Positions 45,966 through 64,000 of a stretch of DNA of 64,000 bases are shown here, piece after piece. The notes under the pieces were generated by a model that worked only from the letters and a program-made list of their open reading frames with translations, did no database searches and was not told the origin of the DNA. The translations under genes and the position numbers were made by a program. Within the stretch, counting starts at the first letter, position 1. Every line of letters begins with the position of its first letter. Source of the DNA: Cytophagaceae bacterium (GTDB lineage: Bacteria > Bacteroidota > Bacteroidia > Cytophagales > JAIYAX01); contig JAIYAX010000001.1 of the NCBI GenBank assembly GCA_027488815.1, positions 186,001-250,000 on the forward strand, given 5' to 3'.

Positions 45966-48900
45966 ATGAGACGGAGGCAAGAAACATGTAGGTCACTCGA
46001 AACAGTCGAGCGACTAACAAGTTCTGTTATTGTTGGATCTGTCGACAGAGGTGAGCAACTGAGTAGAAAAAGCGATAACCTCATAAGAACAAAAAAGACA
46101 TTATTAAAAACCACGCTCGCTTTCCTGCTCAGTATAGGTGTCAACATAGCCAATGCCCAAAACTATGAATGGGCAAAGTCCTTTGGTGGCAGCTCAGGTG
46201 ATCAAGGGTATTCCATCCATGTAGATTCCTCAGGGAATATATATACTACTGGAAGGTTTGAAGGGACAGTAGATTTCGATCCCGGAGCAGGAACAGCTAA
46301 CCGCACATCAGCAGGAAGTCGGGATGTTTTTGTTCAAAAACTAGATGCTTCAGGTAATTTTCTATGGGCCAAGTCCTTTGGTGGTAGCTCATCTGATGAA
46401 GGATGGTCCATCGTAGACGATTCAGGGAATGTATATACTACAGGATACTTTGAAGGGACAGTAGATTTCAATCCGGGTTCAGGAACAGCTAATCTAACAT
46501 CAGCAGGATTCACTGATGTTTTTGTTCAAAAATTAGACGCTTCCGGTAATTTTCTTTGGGCAAAGTCCTTTGGTGGCAGCTCCATCTCAGGTGATGCAGG
46601 GTATTCCATCACGGTAGATGCTTCAGGGAATGTATATACTACTGGAGATTTTGAAGGGACAGTAGATTTCGATCCGGGTGCTGGTACAGTTAACCTTAGT
46701 TCAGCAGGATTGGCTGATGTTTTCGTTCAAAAATTAGACGCTTCCGGTAATTTTCTTTGGGCAAAGTCCTTTGGCGGTAGCTCCAATGATTTAGGATATT
46801 CCATCACAGTAGATTTTTCAGGAAATGTGTATACCACAGGAATCTTTGGAGGGACAGTAGATTTCGATCCTGGGGCAGGAACGGCTATCCTAAGTTCAGC
46901 AGGAATTCAAGATGTTTTCGTTCAAAAATTAAACTCTTCAGGTAATTATCTATGGGCTAAGTCCTTTGGAGGGAGCTCCGCCGATTATGGGTTTTCAATC
47001 ACGGTAGATGCTTCAGGAAATGTATATACTACTGGATGGTTTGAAGGGACAGCAGATTTCGACCCTGGAGTAGGAACAGCTAACCTGACTTCAGCAGGGG
47101 GCGAAGATGTATTCGTTCTAAAACTAAACTCCTCCGGTAACTATCTATGGGTCAAGTCCCTTGGTGGGAGTTCCTCGGATCAAGGGTTGTCTATAGCAGT
47201 AGATGCTTCAGGGAATATATATACCACAGGATCCTTTGCAGGGTTAGTAGATTTCGATCCAGGAGCAGGAACAGCAAACCTAAGTACATCAGGAATCTTT
47301 GATCCTGATGTTTTTATTCAAAAAATTGACGCTTCCGGTAATTATCTATGGGCTAAGTCCTTTGTTGGCAGCTTTAGTGATATTGGGTGGTCCATCACAG
47401 TAGATGCTTCAGGGAATGTATATACCACAGGATATTTTTTCGGGACAGTTGATTTCGATCCGGGTGTAGGAACAGCTAACCTTAGTTCAACATTTGGAAC
47501 TATTGATGTATTCGTTCAAAAATTGAGTCAATGCACTAATAATGGTACTGATGTAATTTCCGCTTGTGGCAGCTACACCTGGCCTGCAAACTCAACTACT
47601 TATACTTCCAGTGGAACATACACCACCACACTGACGAATGCTGCTGGTTGTGACTCTGTGTTGATTTTGAACTTGACCGTCATTCCTTTGCCTTCTACTC
47701 CAACTGTTCCAACTCCAGCGGCAATATGTGCAGGAGGTACTGCTAAGATCACCCCAAATTCTGGAGGAGCCACGTATAATTTTTATGCAACTGCTACCGG
47801 AAGTAATCCCTTGGTGGGAGGTAACGGTGTATCTAGCTTTACCACGCCAGTTCTTAGCAGCACCACGACTTACTATATCGCCTCGGTGTCGGCACAAGGC
47901 TGTGAGAGCAGCACCAGAACGCCGGTAACAGTAACAGTCAACCCGTTCCCACAACCCAACCCCCAGCTCATTGGAGACAGCATCGCCTGTGAGGGGAACA
48001 GTTCTTTTCAAATCAGTGTAGCCAATGCTGCCCTAGTTTCAGTTTATCAGTGGCTGGTGCAGCAGGGGCAGGTCATCAGCGGACAAGGGACGGCCACTGC
48101 ACAGATCCGCTTTGATCTGCCCTTTGGCAATGCCCAAAGCCGCAGGGTCAACCTGATCGAAACTTCACAGCAGGGCTGTATCAGCGATACCGTCCGTAAG
48201 AGCATCTATTTGGATGGCAGTTCAGCAGAGATCCTCCGGGCCACGACTTTGGTCAACGATGAAAAACAAGTGGAAGTGCTGTACCGGATCAACAACCCAA
48301 GCCTGACCAACCAGTTGAATCGCAATTATGAACTGCAACGCTCGGTTAATCTGGGCATTTGGCAAACGGTGTTGAACAGTACCCTCGCCGACAACCGCTT
48401 CAGCGAGACTACACCAACAGGCTATCCTCAGGAGGCGGTGCAGTATCGGCTGCGGTATTCGGATGCCTGTAACGTGGAGCGGAAAAGCAGTGTTCACAGC
48501 CTCATCCGACTAAGCGGTAAGGCCAAAGAAGAGCCCATTGACCAAAGCCAAAGCGGCTACCGGCCGGGTACCACTGCTCTTAACTGGAGCCCTTACGGTG
48601 GTTGGCTGCAAGATGTCGATGAACGCTATGACCTCTACCGATCTACAACTCAAGCTCCGGCTTCGGACTTTCTCCATCGTCAGCGGGTCAACCCACCCTG
48701 GGAGGAAGCCAACGGCAGCGATGCGTTTGTGCAGACCTACCGGTTGAGGGCCAGCACACAGGACGAAGCCGACACGATCCGTTTCAGTTGGAGCAACAGC
48801 CTCACTTTGCGCTACCAAAACCCGCTCAAGTTCTTCAATCTGGTGACCGCCAACGGCGATGGGCTGAACGAGACTTTTGTGATCAGCAATGTGCAGCTCT

Positions 48901-61343: not shown

Positions 61344-61988
61344 ATGCAGTCCGGCGAACTATATCAACGACTAGCTGAACAACTGCAAAGCGGCTTACCT
61401 GGCAAGGAGGCGCAATACCTGATGGCTCCCTTTCGCCGGCAGCAGCGGGAAATCGAGGCGCTCGCAGAAGGAAAAGTGCCCAAAGAAGGGGGCGTACTGG
61501 TCTACCTCTACCCTGTTGAAGAACATGAATACCGTATACTTCTCACGTTGCGCAACGATTACAAAGGGGTTCACAGCGGACAGGTGAGTTTCCCCGGAGG
61601 CAAAAAAGAGCCTCAGGACCTTAGCTTGTACTATACATCTTTGAGAGAGGCTGAAGAAGAGACCGGTGTAAAAGTAATGGAACCTGAAGTGCTGGGCCCA
61701 ATGACTGACCTGTATATCCCTCCAAGCAATTTTATGGTGCACCCTTTATTGGCCATGAGCAGCCAGACCCCTGAGCTAAAACCCGACCCGGTGGAAGTGA
61801 AACGGATTGTGCCTTTCACCATTCAGGAACTGCTGGACCAAAGCAAGGTAAAAAGTGCTCCGATGCAGGTTTTTAACAATATGACGGTGGATGTACCTTA
61901 TTTTGACGTGGATGGCCTGCGGGTGTGGGGGGCAACGGCGATGATACTAAGTGAGCTGAAGGAATTAATTAAAAAGGTGTGGGATTGA
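61344..61988 (+). CDS. CoA pyrophosphatase (NudL-type Nudix)
   Basis: This 214-residue Nudix enzyme has the CoA-pyrophosphatase arrangement. VLVYLYPVEEHEYRILLTLRNDYKGVHSGQVSFPGGKKE is the family front, and LSLYYTSLREAEEETGVKV is the Nudix box, with RE and EE intact. The SFPGGK motif and the distal PPSNFMVHPLLAM match NudL/CoA diphosphatases. It removes 3',5'-ADP from CoA or related compounds. Its last codons (TGG GAT TGA) lie inside the repeat at 61981, so the original C-terminus may have been replaced. Confidence 0.87.
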   Translation: MQSGELYQRLAEQLQSGLPGKEAQYLMAPFRRQQREIEALAEGKVPKEGGVLVYLYPVEEHEYRILLTLRNDYKGVHSGQVSFPGGKKEPQDLSLYYTSLREAEEETGVKVMEPEVLGPMTDLYIPPSNFMVHPLLAMSSQTPELKPDPVEVKRIVPFTIQELLDQSKVKSAPMQVFNNMTVDVPYFDVDGLRVWGATAMILSELKELIKKVWD

Positions 61989-62063
61989 CGATTGGGGGAT
62001 TGACGATTGAAGGGATTGACGATTGGGGGATTGACGATTGAAGGGATTGACGATTGACGATTG
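61981..62063 (+). repeat. 5' tandem repeat block of the four-helix-bundle element
   Basis: The block is built on GGGATTGACGATTG. Five copies are seen at 61981, 61996, 62012, 62027 and 62043, with alternate G and AA spacers, so a 31-base composite repeats twice. It ends in heptamers (ATTGACG ATTGACG ATTGATG), the last of which runs into the next gene's start codon. It also overlaps the last two codons and the stop of the Nudix gene. Confidence 0.9.
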
Positions 62064-62447
62064 ATGGTTATGGTAGAATTGTTAAAAAATAGAACAAAGA
62101 AAATCGGATTGGAAGTCATTAAGCTTGTTGATGAATTGCCAAGCAAGCCTTCGGCCTGGGCTGTTGCCAAACAAATAATCAGGAGCTCAACTTCAATAGG
62201 TGCAAATTACAGGGCAGCTTGTCGAGCAAAATCATCCGCTGATTTTATTTACAAACTGAAAATAGTTGAAGAAGAAGCTGATGAAACCCAATATTGGCTG
62301 GAAGTATTGGAAGAAAGTAACTTAATTCAATCTAATAGGATCATTCAATTGAAAAAAGAGGTTAACGAAGTCGTCTCAATAGTAGTAGCATCAATTAAAA
62401 CTGTTCGTGAAAACGAAAACAACAAATCAAAAAATCGTAAATCGTAA
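62064..62447 (+). CDS. Four-helix-bundle protein (23S rRNA IVS/TIGR02436 family)
   Basis: The 127-residue product matches the S23/IVS four-helix family: KKIGLEVIKLVDELPSKPSAWAVAKQIIRSSTSIGANYRAA near 10-50, then CRAKSSADFIYKLKIVEEEADETQYWLEVLEESN near 52-85. The family includes proteins encoded inside 23S rRNA intervening sequences and the Avd accessory protein of diversity-generating retroelements. No reverse transcriptase or variable repeat is here. The start may be ATG at 62064 or 62070. Both ends of the gene lie in heptamer arrays, and the stop codon falls inside the 3' array. Confidence 0.88.
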   Translation: MVMVELLKNRTKKIGLEVIKLVDELPSKPSAWAVAKQIIRSSTSIGANYRAACRAKSSADFIYKLKIVEEEADETQYWLEVLEESNLIQSNRIIQLKKEVNEVVSIVVASIKTVRENENNKSKNRKS

Positions 62448-62457
62448 ATCGTAAATT
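62432..62457 (+). repeat. 3' heptamer array of the four-helix-bundle element
   Basis: Three AAATCGT heptamers (62432-62438, 62439-62445, 62446-62452) are followed by AAATT. On the minus strand they read ATTTACG, one base different from the ATTGACG heptamer of the 5' block. The two arrays therefore form imperfect terminal inverted repeats around the gene, whose TAA stop is supplied by the second unit. Confidence 0.88.
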
Positions 62458-62594: not shown

Positions 62595-64000
62595 ATGAAA
62601 AAGCTGCTTTTTTTTGTTTTGGCCCTAATACCAAGTATTGGCAATGCCCAGCAAGACCTAAGGTACCAAAGCCCTGACGATACGCTCAAGGCTCTTGCGC
62701 TTGCTCCCTTACCTCCTCAATTGCTGTTTAGCCTCGACAACCAGTGGATGGTTTTCCTTCAGAGGCCCGGCTACCCCTCCATTGAAGACCTCTCCAAGCC
62801 GGAAAAAAGACTTGCAGGCCTTCGTTTCGACCCCAAAAACTTTGGAAGCAGCCGACAGCTAATTTACACCGGGCTTGAAATAAAAAGCATGAAAGGGCGA
62901 AAAGGCTTGGCTATTTCCGGCCTTCCAGAAAGACTCAAGATCAGTGATTTCCGTTTTTCACCTTCTGGAAAGTATGTCTCCTTTGTTCAGAACTATCCCG
63001 ACAAACTGGAGTTATGGTTCATTGATTTAAGCACAGGCAAAGCAGCAAAAGCCATTGACCGTGCGGTTCATGGCTTTCTGGGCAGTCACATCTGGCTTTC
63101 CGGCGATCAGGGACTGGTGGTATCGTTGGTTCCTCAGGGAAGAACCGACCTTCCTGCCGATCAAAGCACCCCGACCGGGCCGACAGTGGATGAAAACTTA
63201 GGTAAAAAAGCTCCCTCCAGAACCTATCAAGACCTGCTCAAAAAGCCGGCAGATGAGCTAGCTTTTGAGTACTATGCAAGCTCAGAAATCTGGCTCGTTG
63301 TACCCGGGAAAAGCACAAAAAAGCTTAAAGATGCCGAGCTCTATACCGATGTGAGCGGCTCACCAGATGGCCGGTTTTTGATGATCGAGCAGCTTAAGAG
63401 GCCATTCTCTTATCTGGTACCTTTCAACCGCTTTCCAAGGACCATCAGCGTAATGGCCGTAGACGGCAGCTTGCAAAAAACACTGGCAGACCTCCCTCTG
63501 CAAGATCAAATCCCCAATGGATTCAATGCAGTGGAAAAGGAGGCTAGGTATTTTAATTGGAGAGCTGATGCTCCGGCTACAATTTGCTATGTACAGGCTA
63601 TGGATGAAGGAGACCCTAAAAAGAAGGCTGACAAAAGAGATGCAGTGTACCTCTGGCAAGAGCCCTGGCAAGCTCCGGCGAAGCTACTGATGGAGTTACC
63701 ACTTCGCTTTGCAGGAATTACCTGGGGTGATGAAAAGAGAGCCCTCATCAATGAAAGCTGGTGGGCTGACCGCAAAACCAGAACCTACCTGTTGGATCCT
63801 TCCGGTGCTTCTAAGCCTAAAGTGCTTTTTGACCGTTCGTCTGAAGATCGATACAATGATCCGGGATCGCCTCTGACCAAATTGAATTCCTTCGGCCGAA
63901 ATGTGATCGCTTTTGGTAAAAAAGGAAACATGTGGCTCAGCGCCTCAGGAGCCTCAGCGGAAGGGGATTATCCTTTCATTCAGGAGTTTGACCCTGTTTC
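62595..64000 (+). CDS. S9-family peptidase (prolyl oligopeptidase-like), N-terminal part
   Basis: From the ATG at 62595 the frame stays open to the window end (468 codons seen). A signal peptide (LLFFVLALIPSIGNAQ) opens it. The remainder has WD-type propeller repeats such as LKISDFRFSPSGKYVSFVQN, ELWFIDLSTGK, DVSGSPDGRFLMIEQL and ALINESWW, as in the propeller of S9 peptidases. Relatives include the glutamyl-peptidase-like group with LPPQLLFSLDNQWMVFLQRPG near the start. The catalytic hydrolase domain lies beyond the window, so activity cannot be checked. It would be exported and act on peptides in the periplasm. Confidence 0.82.
   Translation, partial: MKKLLFFVLALIPSIGNAQQDLRYQSPDDTLKALALAPLPPQLLFSLDNQWMVFLQRPGYPSIEDLSKPEKRLAGLRFDPKNFGSSRQLIYTGLEIKSMKGRKGLAISGLPERLKISDFRFSPSGKYVSFVQNYPDKLELWFIDLSTGKAAKAIDRAVHGFLGSHIWLSGDQGLVVSLVPQGRTDLPADQSTPTGPTVDENLGKKAPSRTYQDLLKKPADELAFEYYASSEIWLVVPGKSTKKLKDAELYTDVSGSPDGRFLMIEQLKRPFSYLVPFNRFPRTISVMAVDGSLQKTLADLPLQDQIPNGFNAVEKEARYFNWRADAPATICYVQAMDEGDPKKKADKRDAVYLWQEPWQAPAKLLMELPLRFAGITWGDEKRALINESWWADRKTRTYLLDPSGASKPKVLFDRSSEDRYNDPGSPLTKLNSFGRNVIAFGKKGNMWLSASGASAEGDYPFIQEFDPV

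Follow-up and report, generated by a model that had tools for sequence, protein, structure and literature searches.

A four-helix-bundle gene between two repeat arrays

The stretch of DNA considered here, 64,000 nucleotides of a contig from a Cytophagaceae bacterium (hereafter the window), carries a gene for a small four-helix-bundle protein of the S23 or 23S rRNA intervening-sequence (IVS) family, enclosed by two arrays of repeats built on a 7-bp unit. The recurrence of the same gene-plus-arrays cassette between genes across many phyla suggests, as far as sequence comparison can tell, a widespread and poorly understood mobile element. In the window, the arrays and the four-helix gene form a 477-bp stretch that separates a Nudix gene from a downstream gene on the same strand; the parts of the locus are the following.

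61981-62457, + strand: whole cassette (left array, gene, right array), from the sequence and Tandem Repeats Finder (TRF); ends set by analogy with loci L049/L055 (see below)
61981-62064, + strand: left array of GATTGAC-type units (GGGATTGACGATTG), from TRF and the sequence
62064-62447, + strand: four-helix-bundle gene (S23/23S rRNA intervening-sequence protein), 127 amino acids, from TIGR02436, PF05635 and a structure model
62432-62456, - strand: right array, AAATCGT x3.6, which reads ATTTACG on the other strand, from TRF and the sequence
61344-61988, + strand: upstream host neighbour, a Nudix/CoA pyrophosphatase-like gene (PF00293, 42.6 bits; NF007980 below cut-off)
62595-63998, + strand: downstream host neighbour on the same strand, continuing past the window end

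A preliminary description made from the letters alone placed an ATTGACG-based array before the gene and an ATTTACG array, read on the other strand, after it, and had both supplying codons to the adjoining genes; TRF and the sequence bear this out. The left array shows periods of 7, 16 and 31 (the 31-mer scoring 152 with 100% matches) and its units are not strict heptamers, as ATTGGGGG and ATTGAAGGG alternate with ATTGACG; the right array has period 7 (3.6 copies, score 50, 100% matches). The first unit of the left array holds the stop codon of the CoA pyrophosphatase gene (which ends GTG TGG GAT TGA) and its last ATTGATG overlaps the ATG of the four-helix gene (62064), while the right array encodes the last residues of the four-helix protein and its stop codon TAA (62445-62447). 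A genome-wide search finds the pattern ATTKACGATTKACGATT nowhere else in the genome. As had been stated for transposases, the open reading frames (ORFs) and the Pfam and NCBIfam profiles reveal no recombinase, transposase or reverse transcriptase (RT) gene between the window arrays, where the four-helix gene is the sole gene.

When aligned, the two arms of the window (GATTGACGATTGACGATT / GATTTACGATTTACGATT) agree at 16/18 positions. This inversion taken alone is only modestly significant, since its local-alignment score of 14 is reached by 34/1000 shuffles and by 14/2000 random window positions; the case for inverted ends thus rests on relatives. The downstream neighbour has no Pfam or NCBIfam match over the part within the window, and in the relatives found the Nudix gene was not seen beside it. 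The gene neighbourhood of the window site is thus not conserved in these relatives.

Association of the gene with heptamer arrays

The family is present in 40/59 genomes of the order, with up to 15 copies per genome. The window genome has three family genes, each lying between inverted repeat arrays with their own different unit; the second of these genes (L001, G000:C22:99303-99614) is broken by in-frame stops and is still flanked by inverted GGTTTATGA-type arrays. A period of 7 stands out: across 119 loci with full flanks, 39% of the flanks reach 20/28 lag-7 matches, as against none of the shuffled flanks. Throughout, the gene served to select loci and array thresholds were hand-set; only where permutations are named are the counts corrected for relatedness.

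For the subtype of the window protein, 80 relatives were gathered from Bacteroidota, Verrucomicrobia, Chloroflexi, Planctomycetes, Acidobacteria, Cyanobacteria and others (for these named loci, the coordinates of genes and starts are the ends of tblastn matches and not annotated starts), and 75 were measurable. A 7-bp array lies on at least one side of the gene in 72/75 and on both sides in 48/75, whereas the corresponding numbers for 524 control genes from these loci are 76 (14.5%) and 12 (2.3%). This comparison of flanks, which the preliminary description had proposed as a check, shows that the association is not due to chance. The motif GATT recurs at a spacing of 7 in 39/70 left and 26/70 right flanks of the window subtype, compared with 6/298 background stretches. 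In five cyanobacterial genomes, arrays accompany 15/19 genes and lie on both sides of 13, with units such as GGGAACA, GGGGAGT and GGGGATC. No description of the general association of gene and arrays was found in the literature searched, although most subscription papers and preprints lay outside that search and one may exist.

One locus (L040, G050:C10:59200-68300) has five four-helix genes in about 7 kb, and a dcw-type ftsW-murG junction is one of their sites. On Planktothrix agardhii plasmids (L222-L224), the four-helix gene lies between the DISARM gene drmD and a methylase/restriction gene; the number and order of the array units vary between strains there, and each side is itself palindromic.

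Structure of the arrays and their match to the protein

Arms contain a median of about five units. The unit differs from locus to locus and is the same in both arms, which also have the order of variant units in common; the similarity of the inverted arms of one locus (median 21) compares with 13 both for shuffles and for mismatched loci. The imperfect terminal inverted repeats announced for the window are thus a strong feature of the family. Phase-aligned arrays (n=141) have about four conserved positions (0.88-0.91) followed by three neighbouring variable ones (0.64-0.72); the phase was set so that the least conserved positions come last, and the contrast is still above that of permuted phases (0.215 vs 0.189, sd 0.006). 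The two arms change in concert between GATTTACG, GAGTTACG and GAAGTACG types at a single site within one genus. The similarity of units follows the similarity of the proteins even between families, and does so in one orientation only. Mismatches between arms show no preference for G-U wobble pairs (188 vs 182).

At L054, a perfect inverted repeat of 57 bp lies on both sides of the gene; it contains GGTCATAGTGAGCGAAGTCGAACTA, a sequence that does not look heptameric. Elsewhere in the window, positions 46169-47524 hold a 195-bp tandem repeat x7 (77% matches), probably a repeat protein.

Presence, absence and dispersed copies

Three cassette sites of G029 are devoid of both gene and arrays in congeneric genomes. 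At one of these, the L043 site, a full-length match that includes the cassette is found in 7/101 species, with arrays alike in all seven, while a species with flanks 94-97% identical lacks the cassette. Dispersed copies are seen in G051, where the two genes of L049 and L055 are 84% identical at the DNA level and both have the TGATTAG unit; homology extends as far as the outer array ends, and the DNA beyond is unrelated. The proposal that the window holds a small unit inserted between genes therefore stands in part: gene and arrays form one unit, they are absent together in congeners, and the homology of L049/L055 is bounded by the arrays; active movement does not follow from these data, nor does insertion at the window site, whose gene neighbourhood is not conserved in the relatives found. 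Only in relatives are both signs seen, namely presence or absence at colinear sites and copies dispersed among unrelated flanks. A pair of Calothrix plasmid loci considered as a case of transposition was rejected; several neighbouring genes also match in position, so that the pair represents a larger duplication. In genus g12, the empty sites L135, L137 and L247 have other palindromic repeats (CGTCATGCTGAGC...) in the same operon gaps.

In genus g33, the site before folD harbours the window subtype in about 20 listed species and cassettes with an ATTCGAT unit type in others. The latter carry an ORF that is unmatched by the query DNA and, from its first residues, looks like another four-helix subtype. 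Cassettes differ by species at this site (L257-L286), some lying beside left-over arrays of the other unit type, and this operon gap is a possible insertion hotspot.

Arrays are also found without the gene. Over about 1.6 Mb of loci, all chosen by gene, 65/238 arrays have no family gene within 700 bp, and for 31 of those 65 an inverted partner is close by. The preliminary description had held that arrays without the gene at unrelated sites would speak against a mobile cassette. Such arrays do occur; the mirrored ones are read as derivatives of the cassette resembling miniature inverted-repeat transposable elements (MITEs), and not as a refutation.

The four-helix protein

The structure of the S23/IVS protein has been solved since 2006 and, to our knowledge, the protein has no known function. 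In profile searches, the window protein exceeds the cut-offs of TIGR02436 (95.1 bits vs 24) and PF05635 (71 bits vs 33.8). Its monomer model has four helices (predicted local distance difference test, pLDDT, 94) and matches 2rld and Xcc0516 (2gsc); a weaker match is to Avd of diversity-generating retroelements (4dwl; Foldseek TM 0.73, sequence identity about 14%). The S23p of X. campestris is reported as a homopentamer (PMC4990558). The four-helix protein is under purifying selection, the median ratio of nonsynonymous to synonymous substitution rates (dN/dS) being 0.11 (48 pairs, at one site across a genus).

Proposed mechanism and alternative explanations

The explanation that we favour, with moderate confidence, is a free-standing DNA cassette of the IVS/S23 type, in which the arrays are ends recognised by a pentamer-type protein and which is spread by what are probably host enzymes. 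Such a cassette would consist of one four-helix gene and, as its ends, a pair of inverted arrays with about five 7-bp units each, within about 0.45-0.6 kb. By analogy with its solved relatives, the protein is expected to form pentamers; the oligomer would bind the tetramer cores of the arrays, and cutting and joining would be carried out by probably host recombination or replication enzymes, which are proposed because the cassette codes for no known recombinase. The cassette is in sense to both neighbours in 121/150 cases and antisense to both in 9; read-through expression is thus likely, and the gene-sense position between operon genes would allow it. Slippage and hairpin-templated copying could shift the number of units while keeping the arms alike. 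A wider proposition is offered more tentatively, as conceivable rather than probable: these would be phylum-spanning minimal mobile elements devoid of a recombinase gene, in which a pentamer-type protein reads a lineage-specific tetramer core every 7 bp in inverted arrays and uses host enzymes; the IVSs of 23S rRNA would be copies that landed in rRNA, and orphan heptamer arrays would be their remains.

Several observations weigh against this explanation. No catalytic partner has been identified, and at the threshold applied about one third of the relatives have just one flanking array. No target duplication is visible at the L043 site, where the intergenic DNA differs greatly between species; since it differs in filled and empty species, a target duplication is unreadable and loss is indistinguishable from gain. 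The support for movement is comparative, no movement having been observed. Lastly, so low a dN/dS at one site goes beyond what would be needed by a stationary element that is purely selfish, and a function kept in place is a possible alternative that also fits this low value among same-site copies.

Among the alternatives, the one that survives best is an RNA-level intervening sequence, possible in our judgement and rather unlikely: the arrays would pair as an RNA stem, RNase III would excise the cassette from the operon transcript and so make the insert tolerable, and any movement would proceed via RNA. Although the prevailing sense orientation agrees with it and the window arrays do pair in the predicted fold, that fold is no better than those of shuffles (z 0.05), the arm mismatches lack a wobble preference, and RT was not found in several element-rich genomes, the window genome included. 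Selection for RNA structure on the arms was rejected, given the absence of wobble bias and of any fold excess over shuffles; because of the missing preference for G-U pairs and the RT result, recognition of the arrays at the DNA level is favoured.

We regard as improbable a vertically kept regulatory module, in which the protein would regulate its own operon by binding the arrays, and patchiness would reflect loss and not movement. Unrelated operons are the sites in different lineages, a single genome contains a pair of related copies whose flanks are unrelated, mirrored arrays occur without the gene, and other species have different units at the same site; these points stand against the low dN/dS at one site across a genus, the sense position between operon genes and the alikeness of the L043-site arrays in seven species, all of which such a module would explain. 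Dependence on a resident RT, of which the four-helix protein would be an Avd-like partner, draws on the fold match to Avd and is very improbable; it was rejected on finding no RVT_1 in G000 (the window genome), G049, G008, G018, G034, G044 and G029, genomes that contain 3 to 10 or more copies. Least probable of all is chance or hitch-hiking of slippage-prone intergenic heptamer repeats that happen to adjoin the gene, for despite arrays that exist without it and unit numbers that vary between Planktothrix plasmid copies, this explanation is rejected by the control genes and by empty sites devoid of arrays, and the arms are inverted, have the same unit and covary with the protein.

These data tie the heptamer repeats and the S23/IVS protein together: such repeats form the ends of a cassette that encodes the protein, with which their unit covaries. 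The array belonging to each S23/IVS protein becomes a concrete candidate ligand for it, many bacterial heptamer repeats gain a likely origin, and the arrival of IVSs in 23S rRNA has a natural account. If the cassettes do move without a recombinase gene, they would constitute a type of mobile element with no described mechanism.

Comparison with known systems

In fold, the window protein resembles Avd of diversity-generating retroelements; unlike for Avd, no RT, template or variable repeat is found beside the cassette, and the window genome gives no RVT_1 match. MITEs and other short transposable elements differ from the cassettes, which have no known transposase, no target duplication seen and an end-array unit that changes from copy to copy; the two have in common a short unit, inverted ends, gene-less mirrored derivatives and an intergenic location.

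The closest parallel is the IVS of 23S rRNA, for which a mobile origin has been proposed earlier where it encodes S23 (PMC4990558). In Coxiella burnetii, the IVS combines terminal inverted repeats with an S23 ORF and with GACAGAT heptamers, two to three depending on the strain; RNase III excises this IVS in vitro (PMC4990558). The preliminary description named the 23S rRNA IVS protein family correctly and missed that the IVS itself has the same layout, with heptamers in the Coxiella copy. Both IVS and cassette carry an S23/four-helix ORF oriented like the host transcript and terminal inverted repeats (imperfect in the window, strong across the family), within a total of about 0.43-0.5 kb; as in Coxiella, tandem heptamers precede the ORF and vary in number between strains. 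In contrast to the IVS, the cassettes sit between protein genes, have whole heptamer arrays on both sides and are numerous within a genome, every copy having a unit of its own; the window cassette, not being in rRNA, is not a 23S IVS by location. Excision by RNase III is a feature of the Coxiella IVS; the predicted RNA fold of the window cassette does not exceed shuffles in stability.

Since 2007, heptameric repeats have been known to be over-represented in many bacterial genomes; as a class they have had no detailed study (PMC4692102). Arrays of GGGAATC in Xanthomonas, of GGGGA(T/C)T in Nostoc (PMC4692102) and of TAACTGA in Beggiatoaceae and others (PMC4679880) have no known origin. Like the cassette arrays, the described bacterial arrays, including the short tandemly repeated repetitive (STRR) sequences of cyanobacteria, are built of 7-bp units, intergenic, close to start or stop codons and in some cases inverted; unlike them, they were described without a linked gene. 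The complement of GGGAATC is GATT followed by CCC, the unit class of the window subtype, which provides a lead that the Xanthomonas repeats perhaps originate from a cassette. In cyanobacteria, similar heptamer arrays are directly seen to flank the four-helix gene, and the cassette may explain their orphan heptamer repeats.
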